DNA from: Akkermansiaceae bacterium
Lineage (GTDB): Bacteria; Verrucomicrobiota; Verrucomicrobiia; Verrucomicrobiales; Akkermansiaceae
Assembly: GCA_029253285.1 (NCBI GenBank)
Contig: JAQWZU010000125.1
Location: 1 to 55,490, forward strand
Reading direction: 5' to 3'
DNA length: 55,490 nt
Part shown: piece by piece, positions 16,138 through 33,224 of the stretch
How positions within the stretch are numbered: the first letter of the stretch is position 1
Layout: each line of letters opens with the position of its first letter
Notes under the pieces: model-generated
Database searches by the model: none
What the model saw: only the letters and a program-made list of their open reading frames with translations
What the model was told of the DNA's origin: nothing
Made by a program: the position numbers and the translations under genes

Positions 16138-16212
16138 GGCAGCGTAGCTCAGGGGTAGAGCAGAGGACTCATAAGCCTTTTGTCGGCGGTTCAAATCCGC
16201 CCGCTGCTACCA
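16138..16212 (+). tRNA. tRNA with CAU anticodon (tRNA-Met, elongator type likely)
   Basis: A complete 75-nt cloverleaf: acceptor GGCAGCG/CGCTGCT (16138-16144 and 16202-16208, first pair G-U), D arm GCTC/GAGC, anticodon loop CTCATAA with CAT at 16170-16172, T arm GGCGG/CCGCC with loop TTCAAAT, discriminator A, and CCA encoded at 16210-16212. The top of the anticodon stem has an A-G mismatch. The paired first base argues against initiator tRNA. CAU could also belong to the lysidine-modified tRNA-Ile, which sequence inspection alone cannot exclude. Confidence 0.93.
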
Positions 16213-16219
16213 TTATATT

Positions 16220-16260
16220 GAAAGCCTCAATTCCGTTTTTCGGAGTTGGGGCTTTCTTCT
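16220..16260. terminator. Bidirectional-looking terminator between the tRNA and the secreted-protein gene
   Basis: A 16-bp stem (16220-16235 with 16241-16256, two G-T wobbles) closes a T5 loop, with TTCTTCT after the stem. It lies 8 nt past the tRNA CCA and 4 nt beyond the stop of the minus-strand gene, so it can serve both convergent transcripts. Confidence 0.85.
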
Positions 16261-16676: not shown

Positions 16677-16859
16677 GAGGGGAATCTAGGAGGAGAAAGA
16701 GGGGCCCGCAAACAGGGAATTAGGGCTGAGAAGAATTTAGTTAAGATATCTTAAATAAATGAAATGAAGCTGATTGTTGGTGGATGTTGCGGTGAAATCG
16801 TCCTAATTGATTCATTTTGTGTGGATTGAGGTGGCGAAGGGGGAGGGTTGATAGCGATC

Positions 16860-16921
16860 GTGAAAAATTTTCACCTAATTTTGTAAAAACGCCTTGCCAG
16901 ATGCTCTTTTATTCCTAGAGT
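16860..16921 (+). promoter_or_regulatory. Promoter region of the rpsL (str/S10/spc) operon
   Basis: TTGCCA (16894-16899), a 16-nt spacer and TAGAGT (16916-16921) form a plausible promoter, with transcription starting near 16928. The bases just after the -10 box are very GC-rich (CGCGCCCCC), a discriminator type known from stringently controlled promoters. Upstream is an AT-rich stretch that includes the perfect palindrome GTGAAAAATTTTCAC (16860-16874), possibly an UP element or operator. The leader to rpsL would be about 220 nt. I see no gene in the 473-nt gap 16677-17149; the leader could hold an autoregulatory structure, but none is obvious. Confidence 0.6.
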
Positions 16922-17149
16922 CGCGCCCCCAAATCGGGTCTGGAGATAAAAATTCCTTTAAAGAATCAACGATTCAGGCCCTTTATCAGGTTTTTAACTA
17001 TCGGGTGCACACCGGAAAAATGGCTCTTGCGAGGAATCTCGCTGAGTTTCCCGGCGACCCTCCGGTTGAGAATCAGCAACAAACTTTCTTTCCTCAGAAA
17101 ACCTCATTTAAACAAACCCGCTTAACCGCCATCCCAAAACGATCGCATT

Positions 17150-17527
17150 ATGCCTACAATTAACCAACTCGTCCGCAAAGGTCGGAAAAAAGCAGTCACC
17201 AAGTCGAAGTCACCGGCTCTGAACAACTGCCCACAGCGTCGTGGGGTTTGTCTGCAAGTCTACACCCGCACACCTAAGAAGCCGAACTCCGCTCTCCGTA
17301 AGGTGGCCAAGGTTCGTCTCACCAATGGATATGAAGTCATCGCCTACATCGGTGGTGAAGGCCATAACCTCCAGGAGCACTCAATCGTGTTGATTCGCGG
17401 TGGTCGTGTGAAGGATTTGCCAGGTGTCCGTTACCACATCGTTCGTGGATCACTCGATACCCTCGGAGTCACCGGTCGTATGCAAGGTCGTTCCAAGTAT
17501 GGAGCCAAGCGTCCTAAGAAGGGCTAA
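17150..17527 (+). CDS. rpsL: Ribosomal protein uS12
   Basis: Small-subunit protein at the decoding centre. The 125-aa protein begins [14 protein letters not shown]. It keeps the accuracy loop [11 protein letters not shown], with the lysine whose change gives streptomycin resistance, and [14 protein letters not shown], with the second resistance lysine and the Asp that is methylthiolated in many bacteria. Both sites are wild type. It is the first gene of the fused str/S10/spc cluster, with rpsG 35 nt downstream. No Shine-Dalgarno is seen before the ATG. Confidence 0.98.
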
Positions 17528-17562
17528 ACCAACTTTCCCAATAATTTTAAACTAACGAACCC

Positions 17563-18036
17563 ATGGCTCGCAGAAAAAGAGTTTACACCAAGCCTGAGAA
17601 GCGTGATCCGAAATTTGACAGCCCCGTTGTTGGCCGTCTCATCAGTAAGGTCATGAAGGATGGAAAGCGTTCCCTCTCGGAGCGTATCGTTTACGCCGCG
17701 ATTGATCGCGCTAACGAAGGCACCGACACCATCGATCCTCTCGAAATCCTCACTCGTGCGATTGAGAACGCCAAGCCTCGCGTTGAGGTGAAGAGCCGCC
17801 GCGTCGGTGGAGCTACCTACCAGGTGCCTCTCGAAGTGGATGCCGCTCGTTCCGAGTCACTTGGAATGCGTTGGATCATCAATTTTGCCCGTGCCAAGAA
17901 AGGCACTCCAATGCATGTCGCCCTCGCCAACGAGATCAAAGACGCCGCCAACAATACCGGCAACTCCGTTCGTAAGCGTGACGACGTTCACAAGATGGCC
18001 CAGGCCAACCGCGCCTTCGCCCACTTCCGCTTCTAA
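17563..18036 (+). CDS. rpsG: Ribosomal protein uS7
   Basis: Primary 16S rRNA binding protein that nucleates the 30S head and contacts tRNA in the E site. The 157-aa protein has the typical opening (MARRKRVYTKPEKRDPKF), the conserved VGRLISKVMKDGKRSLSER region and VEVKSRRVGGATYQVP in the beta-hairpin. Length and order between rpsL and fusA are canonical. No Shine-Dalgarno is visible. fusA starts 47 nt later. Confidence 0.98.
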   Translation: MARRKRVYTKPEKRDPKFDSPVVGRLISKVMKDGKRSLSERIVYAAIDRANEGTDTIDPLEILTRAIENAKPRVEVKSRRVGGATYQVPLEVDAARSESLGMRWIINFARAKKGTPMHVALANEIKDAANNTGNSVRKRDDVHKMAQANRAFAHFRF

Positions 18037-18083
18037 TTTGATTTTATAAGGTAACTTCCCACCGCCCGAAAGGGTCACTCATC

Positions 18084-20243
18084 ATGTCTAAAGTCGCATC
18101 CATTCCAACTCGTCCCGTCCCGCTTGAGCGGACACGGAACATTGGGATTGCGGCGCATATTGATGCCGGGAAGACCACCTTGACCGAGCGGATTCTTTTC
18201 TACACCGGAATGATCCATCGGATCGGTGAGGTGCACGATGGTGCCACCACCACTGATCATATGGAGCAGGAGCGCGAGCGGGGGATTACCATTACCTCCG
18301 CTGCCGTGACTTGCACCTGGAACCAGCGCTCAGAAGAGGGTGTTTCCAAACTCTTCCCGGAATCCAGCCAGCGCATCAACATCATTGATACTCCTGGTCA
18401 TGTTGATTTTACTGCCGAAGTTGAACGTTCGCTCCGTGTTTTAGACGGAGCGATTGTTGTTTTCTGCGGGGTCGCCGGAGTGCAGCCGCAATCCGAGACT
18501 GTTTGGAGACAAGCCACCAAATACAACGTTCCCCGCATCGTGTTCGTCAATAAGATGGACCGTGTCGGAGCCGACTTTGGCAATGTTGTCGAAGAAGTGC
18601 AGAAGAAACTCGGCGTAAGAACGGTTCGCATTTTGATCCCAATTGGTTCCGAAGAGAATCTCCAGGGCCAGATCGACGTTCTTAATAAAAAGGCCGTTCT
18701 CTACACCGACGACGACGTTCTCGGTTCGACCTACACTCTCGCTGATCTTACCGAAGATCAGCTTTTGATTGCCGAGGACGCTTATTCCGAAATTCTCGAA
18801 GCAGTTGCTGACGTCGATGAACAAGTGGGGGAGCAGTTCCTCATGGAAGAGCCCATCACGGTTACAGATCTCAAAGCCGGTCTTCGCCGCGCGACGATCG
18901 CCAACGACCTCGTGCCCATCGCGGGAGGCTCTGCTTTCAAAAACAAAGGCGTCCAGTATCTCCTCGATGCCGTTGTTGATTACCTTCCCAGCCCGCTCGA
19001 AATTCCGGCCGCTACCGGAATGGACCCCAAGAACGAAGAGAAGGCCGTTGAGGTGAAAACCTCCGACTCCGAAAAGTTCTGCGCTCTCGCGTTTAAACTC
19101 TGGGGAGACAAATATTTTGGCAAACTCGTATTCTTCCGTGTCTACTCTGGCACCGTCTCCAAGGGAGACATGATCTACAACCCACGCACTCAACAAAAGG
19201 AGCGCGTGGGTCGTTTGATTCAAGTCCAGGCAGATAAGCACGAAGAAATCGAAACTTGCTTCGCTGGCGACATCGCCGCTCTCGTTGGTCTCAAGAATGT
19301 CCAGACCGGTGATACTCTTTCGCACCAGCAGGCTGGCATTCTTCTTGAGCCACCAAGTTTCCCCGAGCCCGTCATCTCCATGGCTGTTGAGCCCCGGACC
19401 AAGGCTGACTCGGACAAGATGGTCATCGGACTTGATCGCCTTTCTGATGAGGATCCGACTTTCGTCGTTCATAAGGACGAGGACACCGGACAAACCATCA
19501 TCGCCGGCATGGGTGAGCTTCACCTCGAAGTCATCATTGATCGCCTCAAGCGTGAATTCGGAGTGCAAGCCAATGTTGGTAAGCCTCAGATTGCTTATCG
19601 CGAAACCATCACTTCCAAAGCGGCTGGCGAAGGGAAATTTATTCGCGACGCTGCCACCGGCGGCAAGAGCATGTATGGCCACGTCATTCTCGAAGTGACT
19701 CCCAACGATTCAGGGAAGGGGATTACCACTGAAAACTCGGTAACTGCCGGGGCCATTCCTAAAGAGTATATCGACTCAGTGATGAGCGGAGTTTCCGAAG
19801 CAATGACCAATGGTCAAGTCGCTGGCTTCCCGGTTGTTGACGTTCACGTGAATGTTCAAAACGGCTCCTTCCACGAAGTCGATTCCAACGACAACTCTTT
19901 CAAGATTGCGGCCATCTTCGCAATCAAAGACGCCTTTGAAAAGGCCTCGCCAGTTCTTCTCGAGCCCATCATGGATGTCGAAATTGCGACACCTGACGAG
20001 TTCCAGGGAGACATCATGGGTGACCTGAACCGCCGTCGTGGCCAGATTCAGGAAATCGTCACCAAAGGCCCCGTCGCCAACGTCTCCGCCAACGTCCCAC
20101 TTGCCGAAATGTTCGGCTATTCCACGGACGTTCGCACCCTTTCATCCGGTCGCGCCTCCTACACCATGGAGCCGAGCAGTTTTGAGGAAGTTCCTCGCAA
20201 CATCGTTGAGAAACTCGTCGCCGAACGCGGTGGCGGTTACTAA
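18084..20243 (+). CDS. fusA: Translation elongation factor G
   Basis: GTPase that drives ribosomal translocation. G-domain motifs are complete: AHIDAGKTT (G1), the switch I threonine in the RGITITSAA region, DTPGHVDF (G3), and NKMDR (G4). The 719 aa include all five domains, with domain IV in the second half ([16 protein letters not shown]). Its place after rpsG is canonical, but no tuf gene follows; rpsJ starts 32 nt downstream, fusing the str and S10 operons. A long antisense ORF over this gene is a codon-bias shadow. Confidence 0.98.
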
Positions 20244-20275
20244 GAAAAAATCATCCACCAAGATACCTTTCCATC

Positions 20276-20581
20276 ATGAATCAGAAAATCCGCATCCGCC
20301 TCCGCGCATTCGACCACCGGGCCATCGATCGCTCAACCGTCGAGATTGTCGAGACCGCCAAGCGCACTGGAGCCAAAGTCGCCGGCCCTGTCCCTCTGCC
20401 CACTCGGATTGAGAAGTTCTCGGTCAACAGCTCGGTTCACGTGAGCAAGAAAGCTGCCGACCAGTTCGAAGTCCGTACTCACAAGCGCCTTCTTGATATC
20501 GTCGATCCAACCGCCCGCACCGTGGATGAGCTCAAGAAGCTCAATCTTCCCGCCGGTGTTGATATTCAGATTCACATTTAA
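20276..20581 (+). CDS. rpsJ: Ribosomal protein uS10
   Basis: 30S protein and, as NusE, a partner in antitermination and transcription-translation coupling. The 101-aa protein contains the conserved [12 protein letters not shown] opening, [14 protein letters not shown] and the histidine-containing [14 protein letters not shown]. It is the first S10-operon gene, 32 nt after fusA, with rplC 34 nt downstream. No Shine-Dalgarno is visible. Confidence 0.97.
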
Positions 20582-20615
20582 TTTTTCACTTTAACTTCCA
20601 AACGGAACCAGACCC

Positions 20616-21269
20616 ATGTCACTCGGAATCCTCGGTAAAAAAGTCGGTATGACTCGCGTTTTTGACGCAGAGGCAGGCTGCATGATCCCCGTCACTGTCG
20701 TCGACGTGAACGGAAACGAATTTCTCCAGGTTAAGACCTCAGAGAAGGACGGCTACTCCGCCATTCAGGTCGCCTATGACGACCAGAAAGAGAAGCGCCT
20801 CAACCTTCCTGAGCGCACTCACCAGGCCAAGAACGGCGCCACTGTTGCCAAGAAGCTCGTCAAAGAGTTTCGTTTCGACAGCGACGCAGATATCCCTAGC
20901 AAAGAAGACGGGCATCCCGGTGCCAACATCTTCGAAGCCGGACAGTGGGTCGATGTTATCGGCACCACCAAAGGTAAGGGCTTTCAGGGCAATGTGAAGC
21001 GCCATGGCCACAATGGTCAGCCCGATGGTCACGGTCACATGATGCACCGCAGAACTGGTGCCATTGGTGCTGGCTCAACTCCCGCTCGTGTCTGGAAAAA
21101 CCAGAAGATGCCAGGACACGACGGTGTTCGTCAGCGCACCACACAGAATCTCAAAATCGTACAAGTCCGTCCTGAAGACGGAGTCATCCTCATCTCCGGC
21201 GCCATCCCCGGACCAACGACTGGCTATGTCACCGTTCGTCCTGCCCTTAAAAAGTCGGCCGCCAAGTAA
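20616..21269 (+). CDS. rplC: Ribosomal protein uL3
   Basis: Early-assembling 50S protein whose loop reaches the peptidyl-transferase centre. The 217-aa protein starts MSLGILGKKVGMTRVFD. It has the conserved GKGFQGNVKRH and, in the extended loop, GAIGAGSTPARVWKNQKMPG, the region next to the methylated Gln in E. coli. Order rpsJ-rplC-rplD is canonical. Confidence 0.97.
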   Translation: MSLGILGKKVGMTRVFDAEAGCMIPVTVVDVNGNEFLQVKTSEKDGYSAIQVAYDDQKEKRLNLPERTHQAKNGATVAKKLVKEFRFDSDADIPSKEDGHPGANIFEAGQWVDVIGTTKGKGFQGNVKRHGHNGQPDGHGHMMHRRTGAIGAGSTPARVWKNQKMPGHDGVRQRTTQNLKIVQVRPEDGVILISGAIPGPTTGYVTVRPALKKSAAK

Positions 21270-21300
21270 ACCATTTAGATTGATAGAAAGAACCTGATCC

Positions 21301-21906
21301 ATGTCAGCATTCACAATCCAAGACGCTCAAAGCGCCAATATTCAACTGGTCTCCGACGAGTCCAAGGGAAGCCAGGCTGTGCACGACCTCGTCGTTGCTT
21401 ACCAGGCCAACCGCCGCTCCGGAACCGCTCAAGCCAAGACCCGTGGAGAAGTCAACGGAACCGGCAAGAAGATGTATCGCCAGAAAGGCACCGGTAACGC
21501 CCGTCACGGTGATCGTAAAGCCCCGATCTTTGTTGGTGGTGGTGTCGCCTTCGGCCCTCGCAATCGTTCCTACGCCAAGACCGTTCCCAAGAAAGTCCGC
21601 ACTCTCGCTCTGCAGCGCGTCCTTGGTGACAAGGTTAACGATGGAGCGGTCCTTCGCGCTGCTTCTCTCGATGTAGAGTCCGGCAAGACCAAGGATTTCG
21701 TCGCCGCGCTTAAGGCATTGACCGACGCCAAGAAAGTCCTCGTCATCGGTGGAGAATTCACTGATCGAACCTACTATGCCGCCCGGAACGTCCAGTCCGC
21801 TCTTTTGCAGACCGCCGAGTCCGTCAACGTCGAGCAGATCCTTCATAGTAATGCTATCATTATCCTTGATGACGCTCTTGAAACCCTCGCTAATCGCACC
21901 GCCTAA
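21301..21906 (+). CDS. rplD: Ribosomal protein uL4
   Basis: 50S protein lining the nascent-peptide exit tunnel; in enterobacteria it also represses its own operon. The 201-aa protein contains the tunnel-loop signature GTGNARHGDRKAPIFVGGG and the preceding RRSGTAQAKTRGEV. The distal globular domain is normal (DVESGKTKDFVAALK). It is 31 nt after rplC and 12 nt before rplW. Confidence 0.97.
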   Translation: MSAFTIQDAQSANIQLVSDESKGSQAVHDLVVAYQANRRSGTAQAKTRGEVNGTGKKMYRQKGTGNARHGDRKAPIFVGGGVAFGPRNRSYAKTVPKKVRTLALQRVLGDKVNDGAVLRAASLDVESGKTKDFVAALKALTDAKKVLVIGGEFTDRTYYAARNVQSALLQTAESVNVEQILHSNAIIILDDALETLANRTA

Positions 21907-21918
21907 CCTGACACAGTC

Positions 21919-22203
21919 ATGAGAGACATTTACCAAGTCATCGATACCGTTCGCATGTCCGAGAAGGCTGCCCTTCTCCAGGAGAACGATAACACTTACA
22001 CCTTCAAGGTTGCCCAGGGCGCCAACAAGATCGAGATCAAGCAAGCAGTTGAAAAGCTCTTCAAGGTCAAGGTCCTGGACGTTCGCACCAGCAACTACGC
22101 AGGAAAGGCCAAGCGCCGCCGTCGTGCCGACGCCGGACGCACCGCAAGCTGGAAGAAAGCAATCGTCCGTCTCAAGGATGGCGACTCCCTAGACCTCATT
22201 TAA
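21919..22203 (+). CDS. rplW: Ribosomal protein uL23
   Basis: Exit-tunnel rim protein that provides the docking site for trigger factor and SRP. The 94-aa protein carries the family pattern: VRMSEKAALLQ near the start, YTFKVAQGANKIEIKQAVEK in the middle, and the basic loop GKAKRRRRADAGRTASWKKA. It is 12 nt after rplD and 49 nt before rplB. Confidence 0.96.
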   Translation: MRDIYQVIDTVRMSEKAALLQENDNTYTFKVAQGANKIEIKQAVEKLFKVKVLDVRTSNYAGKAKRRRRADAGRTASWKKAIVRLKDGDSLDLI

Positions 22204-22252
22204 TTTTCAATTCTCCCTTATTTAGGAATCTCAGTCAGAAAGGATCATTCCA

Positions 22253-23098
22253 ATGCCACTGAAAAGTTTTAAGCCCGTTACTCCCGCGAATCGTTACAAG
22301 ATGCTTCCGGGGTTCGACGAAATCACCAAGTCCAAGCCTGAAAAAAGCCTCCTCGAAGTCAAAAAGCGCTCCGGGGGCCGCAATAATCAGGGTCGTATTA
22401 CCTGTCGCCACATTGGGGGGGGACACAAGAAGAAGTATCGTCTCGTCGACTTTAAGCGCACCAAGCGTGACCAGGTTGCTGAAGTTGTCGGTATCGAATA
22501 CGATCCCAACCGGACTTGCCGTATCGCTCTTCTGAAATACGAAGACGGAACCAAGAGCTACATTCTCGCTCCATCCGGTCTTACCGATGGTGACAAGGTC
22601 GTCTCTGGTGAATCTGTCGAGCCCAAGGTTGGTAACGCCATGCCTCTGAAGAACGTTCCTCTCGGAACCGCCATTCACAACATCGAACTCCGCCCCGGAT
22701 CAGGTGGTAAAGTTGCCCGCTCTGCCGGACAGCAAGCCATTCTCCAGTCCCGTGAAGGAGGATACGCCTTCATCAAGATGCCTTCCGGCGAACTGCGCAA
22801 GTTCCACGAAGAAAGTTACGCGACCATCGGAACCGTTGGGAACCGTGACCACATGAAGGAAATTTCCGGTAAGGCCGGCCGCACACGTTGGCAGGGCAAG
22901 CGCCCAAGCGTTCGCGGAATGTGCATGAACCCCGTCGATCACCCGAACGGTGGTGGTGAGGGTAAGTCCAAGTCCGGTGGTGGTCGTCAGCACCTCAAGT
23001 CTCCCTGGGGACACGTCAAGGGTCAGAAGACTCGTAAGAAGCACAATCCTACCGACTCCTTCATCATCGAAGATCGTCGCAAGAACAAGCGGAAGTAG
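22253..23098 (+). CDS. rplB: Ribosomal protein uL2
   Basis: Universal 50S protein needed for subunit association and the peptidyl-transferase centre. The 281-aa protein contains [17 protein letters not shown] near the N-terminus and the C-terminal [12 protein letters not shown] block. In that block the first His (E. coli His229) is kept, while the next His of the common DHPHGGG form is Asn. A weak Shine-Dalgarno (AAAGGA) lies about 14 nt before the ATG, one of few in this cluster. Confidence 0.98.
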
Positions 23099-23134
23099 AC
23101 CTCTTTCCTAACTCATCATTAACCATTCTCCATT

Positions 23135-23404
23135 ATGGCACGTTCACTGAAAAAAGGCCCATACGTTGATCAAAAGCTTCTCGCCAAGATTGATGCCTCT
23201 GTCGAATCCGGCAACAAGAAGCCCATCAAAACCTGGAGCCGTCGCTCCATGATTACTCCTGACTTCGTCGGTCAGACCTTCGCTGTTCACAACGGCAAAA
23301 CCTTCGTCCCTGTTTTCGTTTCTGAAAACATGGTAGGCCACAAGCTGGGTGAGTTTTCTCCCACCCGCATATTCAAGGCCCACGGCGGTATTGGTAAGAA
23401 GTAA
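23135..23404 (+). CDS. rpsS: Ribosomal protein uS19
   Basis: 30S head protein that forms the A-site finger bridge with uL5. The 89-aa protein starts [16 protein letters not shown]. It has the signature [20 protein letters not shown] and [12 protein letters not shown]. It is 36 nt after rplB. Instead of rplV, an exported protein gene follows 33 nt downstream. Confidence 0.97.
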
Positions 23405-23437
23405 TCTCCTTAAGGAATCCTCAACATCTCTCTCCTC

Positions 23438-24160
23438 ATGCCTCTCTTATTCAACAGCGCTCTTGCCAGCGGATTGCTCCTTCTCGGAGTATTCGGCAGC
23501 ACCGCTGTTGCCCAGGATGGGGTGAAGGGGATTGTTGAACTTGAGCGCGAAAATCGCCTCCTGAAGCTTCAGGTCGATAATCTCTCGGTTAGCCTTGGTG
23601 CCGCTCTGGCCCGTGAGGGGACCAAGACCGCATCACTCAAGGACGTTAAGCAACGCCTCGCTCTCTTCGGGAAGGATTTCTTTGAAGATGCCGACACTAA
23701 GTTGCGCCACGCCGTATCCGACTATCAGGTTGCCCGGGAAAATCTCACTGAACTTGAGAATGCTACTTTCGACCTGATTCCAGCGATTAGAAACTACCTT
23801 CGCACCGCCGTTGCTTCGGATCCCGATGCCCGCGCCGATGTAGAGGTGAAAATCCGCGAACTCGAGGTTGCTCTGGGCCAGCGCCAGCAACCCAAGCGTA
23901 AAATCGAGCAGGGGACCGCTCAAGAAGCACGCATAGTAACTATTGACTCCAACACCGGACTCGTCGTAGTGAATGCCGGCCACGATGCGGACCTCAACGT
24001 CGGGATGCGTTTTCGTATCGAACGTTCCGGAACTTATATTGGTGACGCCATCGTCGCCGCCACCCGACCTGACGTCAGCGGATTGCTGATGCAGTCACTG
24101 ACAAATCAAGACAATCAGGTGCGCCCAGGCGACACCGCCAAACTTATTCTCAACAACTGA
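23438..24160 (+). CDS. Exported coiled-coil protein inserted between rpsS and rplV
   Basis: A 240-aa protein of unknown function. A signal peptide occupies the first 25 residues (hydrophobic LASGLLLLGVFGSTAVAQ). Next comes a heptad-rich coiled coil (about 31-150: VELERENRLLKLQVDNLS and later helices). The C-terminal beta domain (NTGLVVVNAGHDADLNVGMR; VRPGDTAKLIL) resembles the FlgT-C/SH3-like fold found in envelope proteins. It lies 33 nt after rpsS and 12 nt before rplV on the same strand, so it must be co-transcribed. rpsS-rplV is one of the most conserved gene pairs in bacteria, and an exported protein here is abnormal. Codon choice looks like its neighbours, arguing against very recent transfer. 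Whether it affects ribosomes or only shares the promoter is unknown. Confidence 0.85.
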   Translation: MPLLFNSALASGLLLLGVFGSTAVAQDGVKGIVELERENRLLKLQVDNLSVSLGAALAREGTKTASLKDVKQRLALFGKDFFEDADTKLRHAVSDYQVARENLTELENATFDLIPAIRNYLRTAVASDPDARADVEVKIRELEVALGQRQQPKRKIEQGTAQEARIVTIDSNTGLVVVNAGHDADLNVGMRFRIERSGTYIGDAIVAATRPDVSGLLMQSLTNQDNQVRPGDTAKLILNN

Positions 24161-24172
24161 ACCGCAAAACTG

Positions 24173-24706
24173 ATGCAAGTTCGCTCGACTACCAAATACG
24201 CTCGGATTTCTCCGAAAAAGATGCGCGACGTCGCTCGTGAAATTCAGGGACTCGCTGTCTCTGAAGCCCTCGATGCTCTGACATACACTCCCCGTAAGGC
24301 GGCACACCTGATCGGGAAAACTCTCAAAAGCGCGATCGCAAACGCCGAGAACAATCACGAGCTCTCCGCTGACGAATTGATCGTCGGAGAAGCCGTCATT
24401 GGGGAGGGTCCAACCCTTAAGCGTTTCAAGCCGCGTGCCCGAGGATCCGCTGGCGCCATTCGCAAGCGCACCAGCCACATTTTTATTACTCTCACCGATG
24501 AGTTCGAAGCTCCCGAGGAGAAGAAGCGTTCCGGCAAAGCCAAGAAGCGTGACACCGCGAAGCCCATGTTTGGACAGGCCAAGGCCGCTCCAGCCAAGGA
24601 AGAGCCCGTCGCCGAAGAGCCCGTCGCCGAAGAGGAAGTTGTCGAAGAAGAAGCCGCTGAAGAAGTGGAAGCCACCGAAGAATCAACCGAGCCTGCCGCC
24701 GAGTAA
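24173..24706 (+). CDS. rplV: Ribosomal protein uL22 with long acidic C-terminal tail
   Basis: 50S protein whose hairpin lines the exit tunnel. The first 110 or so residues are ordinary uL22 (KYARISPKKMRDVAREI; the tunnel loop LKRFKPRARGSAGAIRKRTS). After the normal end near residue 112 the protein continues for about 65 residues: a Lys/Arg segment, then an almost pure Glu/Ala/Val/Pro tail including two copies of EEPVA. The total of 177 aa compares with 110 in E. coli. The tail is in frame and uses the same codons, so it is a real extension. It is the third gene after rplB because of the inserted exported-protein gene. Confidence 0.95.
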   Translation: MQVRSTTKYARISPKKMRDVAREIQGLAVSEALDALTYTPRKAAHLIGKTLKSAIANAENNHELSADELIVGEAVIGEGPTLKRFKPRARGSAGAIRKRTSHIFITLTDEFEAPEEKKRSGKAKKRDTAKPMFGQAKAAPAKEEPVAEEPVAEEEVVEEEAAEEVEATEESTEPAAE

Positions 24707-24736
24707 GCCAATTAATCATTTTACACCTTAAGAATC

Positions 24737-25537
24737 ATGGGACAAAAAGTTAATCCAATCGGGTTTCGCCTCGCAGTCAACAAAGATTGGCGCTCCAAGT
24801 GGTATGCCGAAGGCAAGGACTACACTACCAAGCTTCACGAAGATCTGAAGATCCGTAAGTATATTGCTGGCCGCCTTCAGACCGCTGCTCTTTCCAAGAT
24901 CGTTATTGAACGTGCTTGGAACAGCGTCCGCATCACACTTCACACTTCACGTCCCGGACTCGTTATTGGGCGTAAGGGATCTGAGATCGAGAAGATGACC
25001 AATGACATCGGTAAGATCTGTAACGGATCGCAGGTGAAAATCGACATTATCGAGATTCGTAAGCCTGAGCTTGATGCCCAGCACGTTGCCGAGCAGGTCT
25101 GCATTCAGCTTGAGCGTCGTATCGCTTTTCGTCGCGCCATGAAGCGTTCCATCCAGACGGCCATGGATTTCGGTGCCAACGGCATTCGTATCCGCTGCGC
25201 AGGCCGCCTCGGTGGAGCTGATATCGCTCGCGCCGAATGGTATCGCGAAGGGAAAGTCCCTCTACAGACTCTCCGCGTTCCAATCGATTATGGATTTGCC
25301 GAAGCCAAGACCGTTTACGGAATCATTGGTGTGAAGTGCTGGATCAACAAGAACGAAGATTCTGACAAGGGTTCACGCCCTCCGGGTCATGATCGTCCTC
25401 GTCGCCGCGGCCCCGGAGGCCCTGGTGGTGATCGCCGCGGAGGTGGTGGTGATCGTCGCGGAGGCGGCGGTGGCCAAGCCCGGCCCGATAATAATTCTAA
25501 CACGCCCGCCGACGCTCCAGCGACACCCGCTTCCTAG
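24737..25537 (+). CDS. rpsC: Ribosomal protein uS3 with Gly/Arg-rich C-terminal tail
   Basis: 30S protein at the mRNA entry tunnel, with helicase function. The KH domain is clear (RPGLVIGRKGSEIEKM), and the C-terminal domain keeps RCAGRLGGADIARAEW and PLQTLRVPIDYG. The core ends near residue 212. A tail of about 50 residues then follows, rich in Arg, Gly and Pro with two RRGGGG(D/G)-type repeats, and ends in a Pro/Ala segment. The 266 aa compare with 233 in E. coli. The repeat units also show as a DNA repeat near 25425-25475. Confidence 0.96.
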   Translation: MGQKVNPIGFRLAVNKDWRSKWYAEGKDYTTKLHEDLKIRKYIAGRLQTAALSKIVIERAWNSVRITLHTSRPGLVIGRKGSEIEKMTNDIGKICNGSQVKIDIIEIRKPELDAQHVAEQVCIQLERRIAFRRAMKRSIQTAMDFGANGIRIRCAGRLGGADIARAEWYREGKVPLQTLRVPIDYGFAEAKTVYGIIGVKCWINKNEDSDKGSRPPGHDRPRRRGPGGPGGDRRGGGGDRRGGGGGQARPDNNSNTPADAPATPAS

Positions 25538-25580
25538 TCCGGCACCTTATTTAACCAAAAATTTTTAGGAGGATAGAATC

Positions 25581-25997
25581 ATGCCTTTAATGCCCAAAAG
25601 AACCAAGTTCCGGAAGTCCCATCGTGGGAGCCGGAGTGGTAACGCACAGCGCGGAACGAACGTAAGCTTCGGTGACTTCGGTCTCCAGGCCGTCGGTCGC
25701 GCATGGATGACCAACCGCCAGATCGAGGCTTGTCGTGTCACCATTAACCGTTTTCTCAAACGTAAAGGTAAGACCTGGATCCGGGTTTTCCCTCACAAGT
25801 CCATTACTCGTCGTCCACCTGAAACTCGTATGGGTAAGGGTAAAGGCTCTGTTGATGCCTGGGTCGCCGTGATCCGTCCTGGCGCCATGCTTTTCGAAGT
25901 AGGTGGTGTCCCTGAGTCCCAAGCTCGTGAGGCCATGCGCCTTGCTTCCTACAAGCTTGGATTTGAAACCCGCTTTGTTTCCCGCAGCAAGCACTGA
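25581..25997 (+). CDS. rplP: Ribosomal protein uL16
   Basis: Late-assembly 50S protein near the A site. The 138-aa protein contains [34 protein letters not shown] and the loop [17 protein letters not shown] that approaches the peptidyl-transferase centre. It has a strong Shine-Dalgarno (AGGAGG, 25568-25573), the only perfect one in the ribosomal cluster. Confidence 0.97.
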
Positions 25998-26024
25998 TCC
26001 TAACCAATCGAAAGGAATTCTGTC

Positions 26025-26225
26025 ATGCCACAGCCAAAATTTAAAGAAATCGCAGAGCTCAGCTCTGATGAACTTCAGTCCCGCCTGCAAGAACTTAAGC
26101 AGGAGGCTCTTACTCTCCGTATTCAGCAGGCCACCGGCCAGCTCGAAAACACCGCCCGTCGTCGTATGGTCCGCCGCGAAATTGCTCGCGTTATGACCAC
26201 TCTCAATCAACGCAAGTCTGCCTAG
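26025..26225 (+). CDS. rpmC: Ribosomal protein uL29
   Basis: Small helical protein at the exit-tunnel rim. The 66-aa protein has the family pattern: ELSSDELQSRLQELKQEALT, then RIQQATGQLENTARRRMVRR and EIARVMTTLNQR. A GAAAGGA ribosome-binding site lies about 10 nt before the ATG, and the spacing from rplP is 27 nt. Confidence 0.95.
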   Translation: MPQPKFKEIAELSSDELQSRLQELKQEALTLRIQQATGQLENTARRRMVRREIARVMTTLNQRKSA

Positions 26226-26261
26226 CTCCTGAGCTATCCAACCATTTAACTTATTTCCAAA

Positions 26262-26588
26262 ATGAACGAAGATCAGGAAAATACCGCCGCTGCCGAAGCC
26301 GCTCCTGCTGCCAAAACCGACTTTGTGCCTTCCGAGGCCAAAGAAGGAAAAAACCAGAAGGTCCGTGTGGGCATCGTTAAGTCGACCAGCATGAACAAGA
26401 CAATCGTTGTCGAATACGTCAACCGCGTCCCGCACCCCAAGTTCAAGAAAATCATCAAGCAGTCGAAGAAATTCTACGCACACGATGAGAAGAGCGAAGC
26501 TGCCGTCGGAGACAAGGTCCGGATTCAGGAGACCAAGCCAATTTCAAAACTCAAGCGTTGGGAACTCGTTGAAGTTCTCGTTCATTAA
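26262..26588 (+). CDS. rpsQ: Ribosomal protein uS17 with N-terminal extension
   Basis: Primary 16S rRNA binder with an OB fold. The core (about 33-108) has RVGIVKSTSMNKTIVVEYVN and GDKVRIQETKPISKLKRWEL. It is preceded by about 30 residues rich in Glu and Ala (MNEDQENTAAAEAAPAAKTD), absent from the usual 80-90-aa proteins. There is no internal Met before the core, so the extension is probably translated. It is 36 nt after rpmC. Confidence 0.95.
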   Translation: MNEDQENTAAAEAAPAAKTDFVPSEAKEGKNQKVRVGIVKSTSMNKTIVVEYVNRVPHPKFKKIIKQSKKFYAHDEKSEAAVGDKVRIQETKPISKLKRWELVEVLVH

Positions 26589-26645
26589 TCGAACTGCGGA
26601 ACGCTCCGTAATCATTACCTTTAATCCAACGATACCTATTTAGCC

Positions 26646-27011
26646 ATGATCCAGATGGAATCAAAAATCGAGGTTGCCGATAATACCGGCGCCCGTCAGG
26701 CCAAGATGATCGGTGTCATCGGCAAGCGGACCAAGTCTGCTCGCGTCGGCGACATCATCACTGCTCACATCCGTGAGTCCATACCCACCGCTTCTGTGAA
26801 GAAGGGCAGCGTCGTCAAGGCAGTTGTCGTTCGCACCGCTTATCCTGTTCGTCGTGCCGACGGCTCTGTTCTTCGATTTGATTCGAATGCAGTGGTCATC
26901 ATCGACAAGGACGGCAATCCAAAGGGAACCCGTATTTTCGGACCCGTTGCCCGTGAGCTTCGCGAAAAGAACTTCATGAAGATCGTTTCCCTCGCTCCCG
27001 AGGTGCTCTAA
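26646..27011 (+). CDS. rplN: Ribosomal protein uL14
   Basis: 50S interface protein that contacts 16S helix 14 and binds the RsfS silencing factor in other bacteria. The 121-aa length is standard. It starts [20 protein letters not shown] and contains [20 protein letters not shown] and [13 protein letters not shown]. It follows rpsQ by 57 nt, the usual first gene of the spc operon. No separate promoter is obvious. Confidence 0.97.
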
Positions 27012-27038
27012 CTCCACCAACCCTCAATTTTTCGAGAC

Positions 27039-27266
27039 ATGAAAATCAAGACTCACGTAAAAGCTGGTGACGAAGTCGTCGTCATCTCCGGCAACCACAA
27101 AGGAAAACAGGGAACTGTTACCTCCGTGAATGCCGCCAAAGATCAGGTCATCGTCGAAGGTGTCCGCAAGATCAAGAAGGCCATGCGCCGCACCGAAGAG
27201 AACCAGGATGGGGGAATCGAGGAGCAGGACGGCCCCATTCACATTTCCAATGTAAAAAAAGTCTAG
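27039..27266 (+). CDS. rplX: Ribosomal protein uL24, short form
   Basis: 50S assembly initiator. The KOW motif is intact ([20 protein letters not shown]), with [15 protein letters not shown] and [11 protein letters not shown]. At 75 aa it stops right after the 'HISNV' strand and lacks the C-terminal 25-30 residues of the E. coli protein. A run of seven A residues lies just before the stop, but neither alternative frame yields the missing tail, so a simple frameshift does not explain it. Its stop overlaps a two-stem RNA structure. Confidence 0.94.
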
Positions 27267-27299
27267 GTCAGACTGCCTGACTATGTCAGGAACCCGACC
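27266..27299 (+). promoter_or_regulatory. Two-stem RNA element between rplX and rplE, candidate S8 autoregulatory site
   Basis: Outer stem GGTC/GACC (27266-27269 with 27296-27299) and inner stem CCTGAC/GTCAGG (27276-27281 with 27285-27290, TAT loop) flank an asymmetric internal loop of 6 and 5 nt. It lies in the 82-nt rplX-rplE gap, the widest among neighbouring spc genes. In E. coli the S8 repressor binds mRNA at this same junction. The S8 role here is inferred from position and shape. Confidence 0.45.
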
Positions 27300-27348
27300 A
27301 ACCCGCGCGCTTAAGCACGTTTAACCAAACGCTGACCCGCCAAAAACA

Positions 27349-27918
27349 ATGAAACCAACACTCCAAAGCCGATACGAGGAGACGCTTGCAAAAGCTCTCC
27401 AGGAAGAACTCGGCTTCAAAAACGTTAACGAGGTTCCGCGCCTCGAGAAAATATCGGTCAACAGTCATGTTGGTCACTACGCCAACGAGCGAAAGGCTGC
27501 CGTCGAAGACGCTGTCCAGGAAGTCTCCAAGATTACCGGACAGAAGCCATCCGTCGTATACGCTCGCAAGAGTGTGGCGAACTTCAAAGTTCGTGAAGGC
27601 GAAGCCGTAGGAGCCCGTGTCACTCTTCGCGGTGCACACATGTGGGAATTTCTCGACCGCTTCATCAACATCACCTGCCCGAACATTCGTGACTTCCGCG
27701 GCCTTCCATTCAAGTCCTTTGACGGACGTGGAAACTACGCCGTTGGATTCTCGGACCAGTCGATCTTTCCTGAGATCGAACTCGATCAGATCAAACGCCA
27801 GATTGGCTTCGATTTCATCTTCGTGACTTCCGCGAAGTGTGATGCTGATGCCAAAGCCCTCCTCAAGGCACTTGGGATGCCCTTCCGTGACAACGTGAAG
27901 GAAGAATCCGCTGCCTAA
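27349..27918 (+). CDS. rplE: Ribosomal protein uL5
   Basis: 50S protein that binds 5S rRNA and forms the bridge to uS13. The 189-aa protein has typical segments: NVNEVPRLEKISVN, the TGQKPSVVYARKSVANFKVR loop, GARVTLRGAHMWEFLDR, and the RDFRGLPFKSFDGRGNY block. It is followed directly (26 nt) by rpsH; the rpsN gene that normally lies between them is absent. Confidence 0.97.
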   Translation: MKPTLQSRYEETLAKALQEELGFKNVNEVPRLEKISVNSHVGHYANERKAAVEDAVQEVSKITGQKPSVVYARKSVANFKVREGEAVGARVTLRGAHMWEFLDRFINITCPNIRDFRGLPFKSFDGRGNYAVGFSDQSIFPEIELDQIKRQIGFDFIFVTSAKCDADAKALLKALGMPFRDNVKEESAA

Positions 27919-27944
27919 ACCCACGAACTGGAAAATACAGAATC

Positions 27945-28343
27945 ATGGCAACTCTTACCGACCCTATCGCAGATTTCCTCATTCGCTTGAAGAATGCCTC
28001 GCGTGCGAACAACGACTCGTTCCGCGCACCGCACTCCCGGCTTAAGACAGAAATCGCCCGTATCCTTAAAGAAGAAGGTTACATCTGGAACTATGAAGTC
28101 GACACCACCGGGAAATTCCCCGAGCTCGTGGTGAAGACCAAGTTCGTTGACGGTGTGCCGGCCCTTACTGACCTCAAGCGGGTCTCTAAGTGTGGTCGTC
28201 GCAAGTATACCGGATCCCAGGAAATTCCCCGCGTTCTCAACAACATGGGTATTTCCATCCTCTCCACCTCGAAAGGTGTGATGACCGGGCATCAGGCACG
28301 AAAAGACAAAGTCGGCGGCGAAATTATCGCCTTCGTTTGGTAG
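27945..28343 (+). CDS. rpsH: Ribosomal protein uS8
   Basis: Central-domain 16S rRNA binder and, in enterobacteria, translational repressor of the spc operon. The 132-aa protein starts MATLTDPIADFLIRLKNASR. It contains KRVSKCGRRKYTGSQEIPRV and ends with the RNA-binding STSKGVMTGHQARKDKVGGE. Confidence 0.97.
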   Translation: MATLTDPIADFLIRLKNASRANNDSFRAPHSRLKTEIARILKEEGYIWNYEVDTTGKFPELVVKTKFVDGVPALTDLKRVSKCGRRKYTGSQEIPRVLNNMGISILSTSKGVMTGHQARKDKVGGEIIAFVW

Positions 28344-28369
28344 AAACCCCTAACTCAGAAAACAGAACC

Positions 28370-28906
28370 ATGTCACGAGTAGGACTCAAACCCATCCCCG
28401 TAGTCGATAAGGTCAGCCTTAGCATCGACGGGCAGAACGTTACTGTCGATGGACCCAAGGGAAAACTAGCCATCGAGCTTCCGGAAGGAATCACCATCAA
28501 GCAGGACGAGAAAGAAATCACCGTGGAGCGCTCCAGCGAGTTACGTCATGTGCGTGCTCTTCACGGAACATTCCGCAGCCTCATCAATAATCTCCTTATC
28601 GGCGTTTCCGCAGGATTCGTCAAAGAACTCGAGATCCAAGGTGTTGGTCTCCGTGCTGCTGTCAAGGGCAAGAATCTTGACCTTAGCCTCGGTAAGTCAC
28701 ACCCCATCCTTCATGCCATTCCCGAAGGTCTCAAAGTTGAGGTCACCGAGAATACCAAGATCAAGGTTGAGGGAATTGACAAGCAACTCGTCGGTCAGTT
28801 CGCTGCCGAAGTGCGTGCTTACTATCCACCCGAGCCATACAAGGGCAAAGGTGTCCGCTATGTTGGTGAATACGTCCGCCGCAAAGCCGGTAAGTCCGTT
28901 AAGTAA
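28370..28906 (+). CDS. rplF: Ribosomal protein uL6
   Basis: 50S protein near the GTPase-associated centre. The start is the ATG at 28370 ([16 protein letters not shown]), the family-typical N-terminus; an open frame runs upstream into rpsH but is not coding. The 178-aa protein shows the two repeated domains and the C-terminal signature [20 protein letters not shown]. It lies 26 nt after rpsH. Confidence 0.97.
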
Positions 28907-28938
28907 ATCCTGACGAAACCAAAGAACTTCATACTATA

Positions 28939-29295
28939 ATGAGCACTCTCAATCGAAAGGAACTCCGCCGCAAGGTGCATCGCCGCATTCGGAAAAAGAT
29001 CTCCGGAACTGCCGAGCGTCCCCGCCTTGCTGTTCACTTTTCCAATAAAAACGTCTACGCCCAGATTATCGATGATGTCGCGGGTAAGACTCTCTGTTCC
29101 GCCTCGACTCTTGATAAGGAGATCGAAGCGACCGGAGCCAGCAAAGCAACCGGTGAAGCCGTCGGCAAACTCGTCGCCCAACGCGCCGTTGATGCCAAGA
29201 TCGAAGCAGTTGTCTTCGACCGTGGTGGTCACATATACAACGCCAAGGTGAAATCACTCGCCGATGCCGCCCGCGAAGGTGGTCTTAAATTCTAA
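28939..29295 (+). CDS. rplR: Ribosomal protein uL18
   Basis: 5S rRNA binder of the central protuberance. The 118-aa protein has the basic N-terminus ([19 protein letters not shown]), [20 protein letters not shown] and the C-terminal [20 protein letters not shown] block. Standard order between rplF and rpsE, with gaps of 32 and 18 nt. Confidence 0.97.
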
Positions 29296-29313
29296 TTCTA
29301 CCTCTGACTCAAA

Positions 29314-29979
29314 ATGGCAAATAACGAAACTCCCAAGCCTGCTGACAATGCAGGTGGCGCCAAGCCAGCTGATGCAGCTGCCAATCCTGCTGACGCAGGA
29401 AAGCCTGGTGACTCCCGTCGTGGTGATAACCGTGGCGGTGGCCGCGGTGGCAGTCGCGGACCTCGCAAGGACTTCAGTCCTCCCAAGTATCAGGACAAGG
29501 ATGGTAACGAGCTGACTGAAAAAGTCGTCTTCATTAACCGCTGCTCCAAGGTGGTGAAAGGTGGACGTCGCTTCAGTTTCTCTGCCCTTGTCGTCTCCGG
29601 TAACCAAAAAGGTTCTGTCGGTGTTGGATTTGGTAAGGCTAACGAAGTCGCCGAATGTATTCGCAAGGCTAACGAGACCGCCAGCAAGAGCCTGCAAAAA
29701 ATGCAGCTTAATAACGGCACCATTCCTCACGAAATCTACGCCGAGTCCGGTGGTGGTAAAGTGCTTCTGAAGCCAGCTTCTCCGGGAACGGGGATCATCG
29801 CTGGTGGTGGGGTGCGTGCGGTCTGTGAGGCTGTCGGAATTACTGACGTTCTCGCTAAGTCCATCGGCTCCAACAACCACGCCAACGTGGTCAAGGCTAC
29901 TCTCAAGGCGCTTTCACAGCTCCGCAATCGCGACGAAATTCTTACCCTCCGAGGCAAGAAGAAAGAGAAGGCTATTTAA
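29314..29979 (+). CDS. rpsE: Ribosomal protein uS5 with long N-terminal extension
   Basis: 30S accuracy protein at the mRNA entry site. The core from about residue 60 has [40 protein letters not shown] and [19 protein letters not shown]. It is preceded by about 58 residues: an Ala/Pro/Asp-rich part followed by an Arg/Gly-rich part ([19 protein letters not shown]). The total of 221 aa compares with 167 in E. coli. No alternative Met close to the core supports a shorter start. Confidence 0.96.
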
Positions 29980-30020
29980 TCCTTCTTCCCAGCAACTAAC
30001 TCTAAAGAAACTTCATTCCA

Positions 30021-30464
30021 ATGAATCTCCATAATCTCAAGCCGAATCCCGGAGCCAAGCATCGCCGCAAGCGTCTTGGTTGCGGAGAAAGTTCGGGCCT
30101 TGGTAAGACCTCCGGACGGGGTCACAAGGGTCAAAAGTCTCGTTCCGGTGGTGGTGTTCGCCCTGGATTCGAAGGTGGTCAGATGCCTCTGGCTCGTCGC
30201 CTTCCCAAGCGTGGCTTCAGTAACCTGCAATTCCGCGACACCATCGCGACTGTCAACGTTTCCCAACTCGAGTATTATTTCGAGGCCGGAGACGAGGTCA
30301 ATGAAGCGACTCTTCGTGAGAAGGGACTCGTGAAAGGCCAGATCGACAAGGTGAAAGTGCTCGGACAAGGTGAGCTCAGCAAAGCGCTGAAGATCACTGT
30401 TGACCAAGCAAGTGCTTCTGCCAAAGCGAAGATTGAAAAAGCCGGCGGCACCCTTGAAGTCTAG
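30021..30464 (+). CDS. rplO: Ribosomal protein uL15
   Basis: 50S assembly protein. The 147-aa protein opens with MNLHNLKPNPGAKHRRKRLG. It has the Gly-rich SSGLGKTSGRGHKGQKSRSG, FEGGQMPLARRLPKRGF and the C-terminal LGQGELSKALKI. The gene for L30 (rpmD), usually between rpsE and rplO, is missing; only 41 nt separate them. Confidence 0.97.
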   Translation: MNLHNLKPNPGAKHRRKRLGCGESSGLGKTSGRGHKGQKSRSGGGVRPGFEGGQMPLARRLPKRGFSNLQFRDTIATVNVSQLEYYFEAGDEVNEATLREKGLVKGQIDKVKVLGQGELSKALKITVDQASASAKAKIEKAGGTLEV

Positions 30465-30530
30465 ATCATGAAGAGCGACAGGGGATATCTTGTCCTCTGC
30501 TTCTTTTGATTTAGAGCTTCTTCCCCACCA

Positions 30531-30989
30531 GTGAAAATCTCCTCGCAAACACAGTTTACGTTGAGCCCGGTTCCCCGGGCTGCAGCGTTTTTTGCGTTTT
30601 TGATGACTCTATTCATTTTGCCATCTTGCGGGGAGGAAGACCCCCGGGCGGCAAACATGGAAAAGCAAGCAGCCACTTATCAAGAGTTGGCTGAAATGAT
30701 GAATCAACTTTCCGAAGGGAAGGATGTTCCATCGGCCGCCGACAAAGTGAGCGAATTGGTTGCTCAAATGATGACGCTGAAAGAAAAGAGCAACAGCATG
30801 GTCAAGCCCGAAGGTGATGTCGCATTGGAAGCTCTTCAAAACAACAAGGCCTACAGCGAGGCCGTTAAGGCTTTTTTCGAAGCCCAAAAGAAACTGACCC
30901 AATCGGGAAAGATGACCGCTGAAATTCTCGCAGCCCTTCAGGGCTTTCATCAAGCACCCGAGCCCCAGATGGGGGAGGGTCTTAACTAA
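30531..30989 (+). CDS. Predicted lipoprotein between rplO and secY
   Basis: A 152-aa protein starting at GTG. A hydrophobic leader (AAAFFAFLMTLFILPSCGEE) ends in a lipobox-like LPSC, so it should be a lipid-anchored envelope protein. The mature part is mostly helical and charged, without a family I recognise. It lies 66 nt after rplO and 29 nt before secY on the same strand, at a position normally empty in the spc operon. The 66-nt gap holds an imperfect hairpin and a TTTT run (about 30470-30509) that could lower downstream expression. The next Met (30602) would delete most of the leader, so GTG is preferred. Confidence 0.75.
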   Translation: MKISSQTQFTLSPVPRAAAFFAFLMTLFILPSCGEEDPRAANMEKQAATYQELAEMMNQLSEGKDVPSAADKVSELVAQMMTLKEKSNSMVKPEGDVALEALQNNKAYSEAVKAFFEAQKKLTQSGKMTAEILAALQGFHQAPEPQMGEGLN

Positions 30990-31018
30990 TTTTTAACCGC
31001 TCGTTTGATCATCTCATT

Positions 31019-32524
31019 ATGATTTCTGCATTTGCTAATACCTGGAAAATCCCCGAGCTGAGGGATCGCATTCTTTTCGCCATGGCCATGATCGTGATCG
31101 TGCGTCTCGGTGTCGCCCTGCCACTCCCCGGAGTGAACATGGACGTCATCAAGACCTACCTCGATATGTTGGCGACCGATAGTGCTGACGGAGCCGGTGG
31201 TGGCGTCGGAGCAATTCTGAACGTGTTCTCCGGTGGCGGATTGCAGGCAATGGGCCTCTTTTCTCTGGGAATCATGCCCTATATCTCGGCATCGATTATG
31301 ATGCAGCTCCTCAGTGCGGTGGTGCCAAAACTGGCCCGCATGAAAAAGGAAGACGGAGGTCAGCAGAAGATTAATCAGTATACCCGCTTCGTGACGATTG
31401 CGATTGCCACGGTTCAGGGATTCTTCCTTGCCAAGTCGCTTGAAAATCCACAAAGCAACCCGCTTCTCGGAGGTATTGGAAAAGCGATCGACGCGGTTGG
31501 CTCTGATCTTGTCCCGGATTTCGGTCCTGGCTTCATTGCCCAGACTGTCTTGATTATCGTGGCGGGAACGCTTCTTCTTATGTGGATTGGTGACCAAATC
31601 ACCGAACGTGGAATTGGTAACGGTGTTTCCCTGATCATCTCGGTGAATATTATCTCGGCCCTCCCGGGTGTGATCGTCCAGCTCTGGAATACCTTCGTGA
31701 TTGAGCGCAGCAGTCCGTTTAGCCCGCTCTTAATCGTGCTTCTTCTGGTCTTTTTCCTCTTTGTGGTTGCAGCCATTATTTCAATTACTCAGGCCCAGCG
31801 TCGAATCGCGGTGCAATATGCCCGCCGGGTTGCTGGTCGTCGTGAGATGGCCGGAGGAACCCAATATCTTCCGCTCAAGGTGAATTACGCCGGGGTGATG
31901 CCCGTGATTTTCGCGACTGCTATTCTGCAGCTGCCAACCCAGCTGTTGGGCCAGATTTTCCCAACCAGCCCTTGGGTAGGCACGGTCCGTGATTTCCTCG
32001 ATCCCAATGCTCCTTGGTTCTATGTGATTTCGGGTGCGATGATTTTCTTCTTCAGTTTCTTCTGGGTGGCCACGATGTTCCAGCCGAGTGAGATTGCCGA
32101 AAACCTCAAGCGTAGCGGGGGATACATTCCCGGAGTGCGTCCCGGTAAGCCGACTTCGGACTTCCTTGACTTCACCATGACCCGTCTGACTTTTGCAGGC
32201 GCGGCCTTCTTGACGCTCATCTTCATGTTGCCAAACTTTGTGGCCCTGCCACTTAATCTGCCGCCCAACGGGTTGATTACCTCCTTCTTCGGGGGAACCA
32301 GTCTTCTGATTTTGGTCGGGGTGCTCCTAGATATGATGCGACAGATCGAGACCCACCTGCTCCAGCGTCAATACGATGGCTTCCTTCGCAAAGGGAAGAT
32401 CAAAGGACGTCAGCAGCGGATGGCCTCCGGCGCGCAGGCCTCAGGTTCTTCGATCCTCTATATTTGGGTGGTTCTGGCCGTAATCGTCCTTGTGGCAATT
32501 GTTGCGCTGATTCTTAACAAGTAA
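31019..32524 (+). CDS. secY: Preprotein translocase subunit SecY
   Basis: Channel subunit of the Sec translocon in the inner membrane. The 501-aa protein shows the pattern of ten membrane segments. It has the conserved periplasmic plug region after TM1 (GVALPLPGVNMD), SLGIMPYISASIMMQLL in TM2, and cytoplasmic loops with the SecA/ribosome-binding KVNYAGVMPVIFA and the PSEIAENLKRSGGYIPGVRPG signature. At 501 aa it is longer than E. coli (443), mainly in the loop after TM3 (QSNPLLGGIGKAIDAVG...) and the C-terminus. adk begins 7 nt after its stop. Confidence 0.97.
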   Translation: MISAFANTWKIPELRDRILFAMAMIVIVRLGVALPLPGVNMDVIKTYLDMLATDSADGAGGGVGAILNVFSGGGLQAMGLFSLGIMPYISASIMMQLLSAVVPKLARMKKEDGGQQKINQYTRFVTIAIATVQGFFLAKSLENPQSNPLLGGIGKAIDAVGSDLVPDFGPGFIAQTVLIIVAGTLLLMWIGDQITERGIGNGVSLIISVNIISALPGVIVQLWNTFVIERSSPFSPLLIVLLLVFFLFVVAAIISITQAQRRIAVQYARRVAGRREMAGGTQYLPLKVNYAGVMPVIFATAILQLPTQLLGQIFPTSPWVGTVRDFLDPNAPWFYVISGAMIFFFSFFWVATMFQPSEIAENLKRSGGYIPGVRPGKPTSDFLDFTMTRLTFAGAAFLTLIFMLPNFVALPLNLPPNGLITSFFGGTSLLILVGVLLDMMRQIETHLLQRQYDGFLRKGKIKGRQQRMASGAQASGSSILYIWVVLAVIVLVAIVALILNK

Positions 32525-32531
32525 TCATTCG

Positions 32532-33155: not shown

Positions 33156-33224
33156 GGAAATGATCCCGTCTGATCCGACACTGCCTTGACCTCCCCCTGA
33201 TAAGTCTTTACCCAAGTTCTTCAG

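Follow-up and report, generated by a model that had tools for sequence, protein, structure and literature searches.

An old gene for a probably exported protein lies between rpsS and rplV in an Akkermansiaceae bacterium and beside rplV in related lineages

The window analysed here, a stretch of 55,490 nucleotides from an Akkermansiaceae bacterium, carries on its + strand a gene, here called X (23438..24160), whose predicted product of 240 amino acids combines a signal peptide, a helical region and a C-terminal beta domain. The gene is placed between rpsS and rplV, the genes of the ribosomal proteins S19 and L22, whose adjacency is among the most conserved in bacteria. Homology searches and gene order in separate assemblies confirmed that the linked gene is old, and neither recent nor an assembly error. 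X is uncharacterised: no Pfam or NCBIfam model covers the window protein at its cut-off, and no description of the gene was found in the titles and opening lines of abstracts listed by searches of open-licence literature. On balance, we consider it probable that X is a periplasmic scaffold or adaptor that is needed in proportion to growth and is expressed from the S10 transcript.

The gene rpsS (23135..23404, + strand; Pfam PF00203, E 2.8e-37) is separated from X by 33 nt (23405..23437, + strand), and rplV (24173..24706, + strand; Pfam PF00237, E 5.7e-37) follows X after a gap of 12 nt (24161..24172, + strand). The coordinates and the Pfam assignments agree in this with the preliminary description of the window, made from the letters of the DNA, which had placed the gene between these two neighbours with the same gaps. 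Among 92 loci the gaps have medians of 23 nt on the 5' side of X and about 14 nt on its 3' side, with the rplV starts extrapolated. The surrounding str-S10-spc cluster runs from rpsL to secY (17150..32524, + strand), and its genes other than those of S19 and L22 were identified by sequence and order instead of by family search. A consensus scan, which is a weak test, revealed no sigma-70-like promoter and no terminator-like site on the + strand from rpsS to rplV, the 33-nt gap included, in line with the earlier expectation that X has no promoter of its own and would be read together with the ribosomal protein genes. Rfam gave one tRNA and nothing else over positions 16000-34000. No Pfam family was found in X at E <= 1, and the NCBIfam matches all stayed far below their cut-offs; the best of them scored 20.3 bits over residues 47-122 with a hydroxymethylphosphonate dioxygenase model whose cut-off is 300, and is taken for a chance match of the helical region. 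In the window's own genome, one match was obtained with X in a single-protein search and one with the family profile.

Other features of the cluster were read by eye. A clear Shine-Dalgarno sequence is absent 5' of rpsS, X and rplV (23123-24172), L22 has an acidic Ala/Glu low-complexity tail (24500-24706), and S3 has a Gly/Arg low-complexity tail (25350-25537). An ORF of 152 aa between rplO and secY (30531-30989, + strand) bears a lipoprotein-like signal (LPSCGEED) and may encode a second exported protein of the cluster; homologues of this ORF occur in 21 of 38 genomes, all 21 being among the 24 genomes of the window's genus, which include its own, and none among the 14 order-level genomes.

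The occurrence of X was followed in a set of 58 genomes, composed of the window's own and its relatives, and in an even draw of 113 genomes of the class that includes the window's own; the phylum of the sampled genomes inside and outside the class was taken to be Verrucomicrobiota. A homologue of X was found in 55 of the 58 genomes, and the search of this set gave no match in G011, G015 and G051. X stands between rpsS and rplV at all 30 best-hit loci (own included). Another 25 loci with rplV were available at the family and order level, not counting again loci L031-L041, which apparently come from the same assemblies as other sampled relatives; both neighbours are present at 24 of them, each time with an ORF of this kind between the two, and at the remaining one, on the edge of a contig, X precedes rplV. 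Counts for the class refer to the 111 genomes with S19 and L22, leaving out G106 and G116, which have neither. Among these 111, a homologue of X occupies the locus in 68, in a long form in 59 and in a short form in nine (G064, G088, G095, G101, G119, G141, G146, G155 and G163). The S19 and L22 domains are more than 500 nt apart in 60 class genomes, 59 of which have a strong profile match (E <= 6e-49) and the 60th of which is G107, the strong matches having been equated with the long-spacer genomes by eye, name by name. The short forms, eight of which were read and measure 111-130 aa, consist of a signal peptide and the beta domain without the helical region, and a profile-profile comparison joined them to the long forms with a probability of 98.7 and an E of 4.5e-16 over 80 columns. 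The other 43 of the 111 genomes have no X at the locus: in 40 of them fewer than 200 nt separate the S19 and L22 domains, which is too short for the beta domain, and the spacers of G107, G115 and G082, of 261-604 nt, contain no homologous ORF.

Outside the class, a homologue lies directly 5' of rplV in at least 39 of the 81 genomes with rplV, and in 42 none was found beside rplV among the matches listed. In 14 of these at least 39 carriers rpsS closely precedes X, as it does in the window; in 25 it is on another contig or strand, far off or, in one case, not found. Contig breaks could mimic some of these split loci; the assemblies of G168, G219, G242 and G245 consist of 1-5 contigs. When outgroup spacers were fetched, 13 of 14 held a homologue (E 4e-14 to 2e-30, small set), its position 5' of rplV was confirmed in G168, G245, G165, G173, G197, G199, G219, G240 and G242, and no homologue was found in the stretch 5' of rplV in G195. 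As X adjoins rplV even where rpsS is elsewhere, the shared neighbour is rplV and not rpsS. In several outgroup lineages (G168, G219, G242 and G245), rpsS and rplV are far apart and the S10 operon is broken 5' of the X-rplV pair. The best explanation of this distribution is that the gene was placed 5' of rplV before the class arose and was inherited mostly vertically. The suggestion in the preliminary description that the arrangement may be old was thus borne out by homology search and synteny, within the class and beyond it. That X might be a recent insertion or a product of misassembly, the outcome which would have overturned that suggestion, has a negligible probability and is refuted by the same order in many separate assemblies, among them the single-contig G075, G083, G102, G143, G094 and G040.

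X also has relatives away from the ribosomal genes, since one or more additional matches lie at other places in the genomes of 63 of the 68 class carriers. Some of these are helical proteins with an N-terminal anchor, arranged in tandem pairs (L066, L067 and L073); they share with X a helical region and the same C-terminal domain but differ from it by their separate clade, by a weaker charge bias around the N-terminal stretch and by having no linkage to rplV. In L067 an M23 peptidase (Pfam E 4e-19) is encoded close to the pair, and the C-terminal domain has a homologue at L063:1242-2336 that forms the end of a protein encoded next to ORFs that, by eye, are sigma-factor-like and pilin-like. A quick, low-resolution tree was made for the C-terminal domain from 109 rows and 87 columns, and 54 of its 106 inner branches are open. 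It gathers 16 unlinked proteins in a single clade (SH-aLRT 93), and the rplV-linked proteins cluster largely by family. L176, L178 and L179, which are unlinked and come from one genus, sit among rplV-linked relatives and are read as relocated. The unlinked matches of five class genomes without X at the locus (G069, G070, G128, G139 and G152) belong to the paralogue clade, which speaks for X being absent or lost in those genomes and against its relocation. Two placements blur the picture: the short forms group with the paralogues, though weakly supported (51), and L138, an outgroup row, is placed on a long branch inside a family of the class.

Against three near relatives, the dN/dS of X is 0.057, 0.078 and 0.115, compared with 0 to 0.108 for four ribosomal proteins in the same pairs; against four more distant relatives it is 0.13-0.26 for X and 0.03-0.14 for the ribosomal proteins, and one of the comparisons yielded no dS. 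These low values indicate that X is constrained, but less so than the ribosomal proteins. Measured with a codon table derived from the cluster's translation genes, X has a codon adaptation of 0.618, whereas the 22 translation genes (21 ribosomal proteins and EF-G, leave-one-out) range from 0.664 to 0.780; X exceeds secY (0.567) and, set against 113 background ORFs (mean 0.572), lies at their 65th percentile. Its bias being under that of every ribosomal protein tested, X lacks the codon optimisation of a ribosomal protein, and this argues against an output at the level of ribosomal proteins. The claim that its codon choice resembles that of the neighbours therefore stands for composition, as the GC3 of X is the same as theirs, and fails for translational optimisation.

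A codon bias so near the background agrees with a scenario in which an envelope gene entered a strong operon once, found the exit hard and has no functional tie to the ribosome. The relocated orthologues L176, L178 and L179, together with the absence of X from many families, point in the same direction because they indicate that the link is dispensable. However, the linkage to rplV persists without rpsS upstream in 25 of the at least 39 carriers outside the class, and we retain this chance origin as a tentative alternative. Selection could also act on the place instead of the protein: X might serve as a translational spacer, either coupling ribosomes into rplV or setting the ratio of S19 to L22. 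Both the short gaps and the fact that X stays beside rplV where rpsS is elsewhere would suit a spacer, but the purifying selection is seen at the protein level, the hydrophobic N-terminus and residues of the domain are conserved, and 43 of the 111 class genomes manage without X at the locus, all of which makes a spacer very unlikely.

The signal peptide predicted for X comprises residues 1-25 (23438..23512, + strand), with a hydrophobic core and the motif AVA before Q26, the cleavage site having been placed by eye. By simple heuristics, 94 of 98 rplV-linked homologues have a strongly hydrophobic N-terminal stretch, 48 have an AxA motif within reach, eight have a lipobox-like motif and 11 have a later hydrophobic stretch. 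This set omits 20 loci of the window's genus, L031-L041, the non-homologous L093, L095 and L103, and L096 and L110, whose starts were mis-picked. The charge is more positive before the first hydrophobic stretch than after it in 101 of 111 linked proteins, against eight of 13 anchored paralogues. From the 111 proteins were left out L093, L095, L103, L096, L110, L002-L004 and L031-L041, as well as the outgroup rows L141, L142, L151 and L181, which have uncertain starts; the paralogue comparison omits L063, L073 and the relocated L176, L178 and L179, and near-copies are present in both the 98- and the 111-protein sets. The charge bias favours an exported protein over a cytoplasmic, membrane-tethered form. 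Export of X by the predicted signal peptide, already proposed in the preliminary description, is well supported by these sequence features. A ribosomal protein is expected to be cytoplasmic and to have no export signal, and the hydrophobic N-terminus and charge bias found by these heuristics set the X family apart from that expectation.

The same charge bias speaks against the earlier idea of a factor tying ribosomes to the membrane, as it puts X outside the cytoplasm, and the sequence contains no hint of ribosome binding; that idea finds no support. A different kind of tie would be transertion, in which the co-translational export of X pulls the polysomes of the S10 operon to the membrane. 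Both the short forms, in which the stalk is lost but signal peptide and beta domain are retained, and the linkage to rplV without rpsS are compatible with it, and we give it very little credence. If it were true, the synthesis of ribosomal proteins would be sited at the export machinery and throttled by it, and X would report the capacity of the envelope.

After the signal peptide comes a helical, probably coiled-coil region of residues 28-145 (23519..23872, + strand), proposed from an AlphaFold model and from hydrophobic periodicity. The full-length model (12 sequences) has helices at 28-124 and 129-145 and is poor (pLDDT 62.7, pTM 0.31). A hydrophobic periodicity of 3.5 residues over residues 30-146 is above that of shuffled sequences (p = 0.006); it stems mainly from residues 90-146 (p = 0.015), and residues 30-90 alone are not above the shuffles (p = 0.39). 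A coiled coil is likely from this pattern, though not necessarily along the whole helical stretch; the long coiled coil of the preliminary description was upheld by the periodicity of the entire stretch but not by that of its first half. Because the full-length model was too poor for a search, the C-terminal domain, residues 158-240 (23909..24157, + strand), was modelled and searched alone. The model is all-beta (pLDDT 75.4, pTM 0.65), as had been foreseen for this part of the protein. The domain forms the conserved core of the family: apart from M1, the positions that vary little or not at all among 55 diverse members are G78 in the helical region and G181, G189, R196, R210, G231 and D232 in the beta domain.

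When the profile of the 55 members was compared with the PDB, the top match was the C-terminal part of TsaP (3jc8), the type IV pilus secretin-associated protein, with a whole-sequence E of 2.8e-4 that comes from two stretches (298-356 and 367-401), each weak singly (i-E 0.2 and 53). FlgT_C (PF16538) matched 14 of the 55 members at E <= 0.1, with a best value of 2.9e-4, and did not match the window protein itself. Foldseek gave no match at E <= 0.001 for the domain model; rank 1 was 8z5n chain 0 of the LPHT ring (E 0.051), presumably FlgT by its length, and rank 3 was FlgT 3w1e (E 0.057), with N-terminal barrels of the F1-ATPase interspersed. The VIA Z of 9.7 to 8z5n is tied with values of up to 10.4 for the F1-ATPase barrels. 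The C-terminal domain of X thus bears a weak resemblance to FlgT and TsaP, both of them components of outer-membrane rings, which is the likeness that the preliminary description had proposed to look for in FlgT-C. FlgT has further N and M domains, and no other FlgT domain was found in X (Pfam, E <= 1) or, for the 55 members, among the best 25 of 106 families; the order of the parts and the locus of FlgT differ from those of X as well. FlgT is described as forming part of the flagellar H ring of Vibrio (PMC7693769). TsaP is described as a peptidoglycan-binding LysM-domain protein that interacts peripherally with secretin rings and without which pilus fibres stay behind in the periplasm (PMC4471445). 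Unlike TsaP, X has no LysM domain (no Pfam match at E <= 1), and has instead the helical stalk and its location in the S10 operon.

This resemblance suggests that X could be the counterpart of TsaP in the phylum, its beta domain binding the periplasmic ring of PilQ or GspD and its stalk bracing the ring, such that new secretins are equipped during growth. Besides the profile match to the C-terminal part of TsaP, the co-occurrence of the genes speaks for such an anchor: in cross-tables of secretins and MreC compiled by eye for the 111 class genomes, a secretin-domain match is present in all 68 carriers of X, and the 10 genomes without secretins, all of family f12 (10 of 11 sampled; G063, G070, G079, G087 and others), are also without X. 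PilQ is described as the most abundant outer-membrane protein of Akkermansia muciniphila (PMC4960237), and an abundant PilQ would fit the need for a steadily supplied secretin partner, although it is a guess that X is this partner and that it is present in A. muciniphila. Nevertheless, 33 of the 43 genomes without X keep their secretins, so that X is not required for a secretin, and the joint absence in one family counts as a single event. Given also the weakness of the single TsaP stretches, the missing LysM domain and the fact that such a role does not need a linkage to the S10 operon, we hold the secretin anchor, as a full account of X, to be doubtful.

In having a helical region ahead of its beta domain, and in lying outside the cytoplasm, X also resembles MreC, whose order is membrane anchor, coiled coil and beta barrels, and X could act like MreC or alongside it in the elongation of the cell wall. 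Apart from this order of parts and the envelope location, the evidence is contrary: X has no match to MreC (PF04085; Pfam, E <= 1), 17 of the 68 carriers have no MreC match (16 genomes of genus g3 in family f1, and G103), and 42 of the 43 genomes without X have MreC. We regard such a role as highly improbable, and a partnership with MreC or a dependence of X on it is disfavoured, as the 17 carriers indicate that X is independent of MreC. As a separate observation on the genus, all 16 sampled g3 genomes (G028, G075, G083 and 13 more) are without an MreC match, and G000 and G032, the two other sampled members of f1, have one.

The scaffold or adaptor that we favour would work as follows. X would be read with the S10 operon, and its supply would then track the synthesis of ribosomes, so that the growth-rate-linked production suggested in the preliminary description would follow from this presumed co-transcription; the signal peptide would take it out of the cytoplasm, where the helical stalk may space or oligomerise it, and the FlgT_C-like beta domain, by analogy with FlgT and TsaP, may dock on a structure of the envelope. 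An outer-membrane secretin of the PilQ or GspD type would be the first candidate partner.

For Verrucomicrobium spinosum, transposon essentiality data and targeted mutagenesis are described (PMC12283558), and X is a defined gene that could be tested there, provided that this species carries it. An exported protein kept beside rplV in many lineages, even with the operon broken upstream, hints at a link between the supply of ribosomes and the growth of the envelope.
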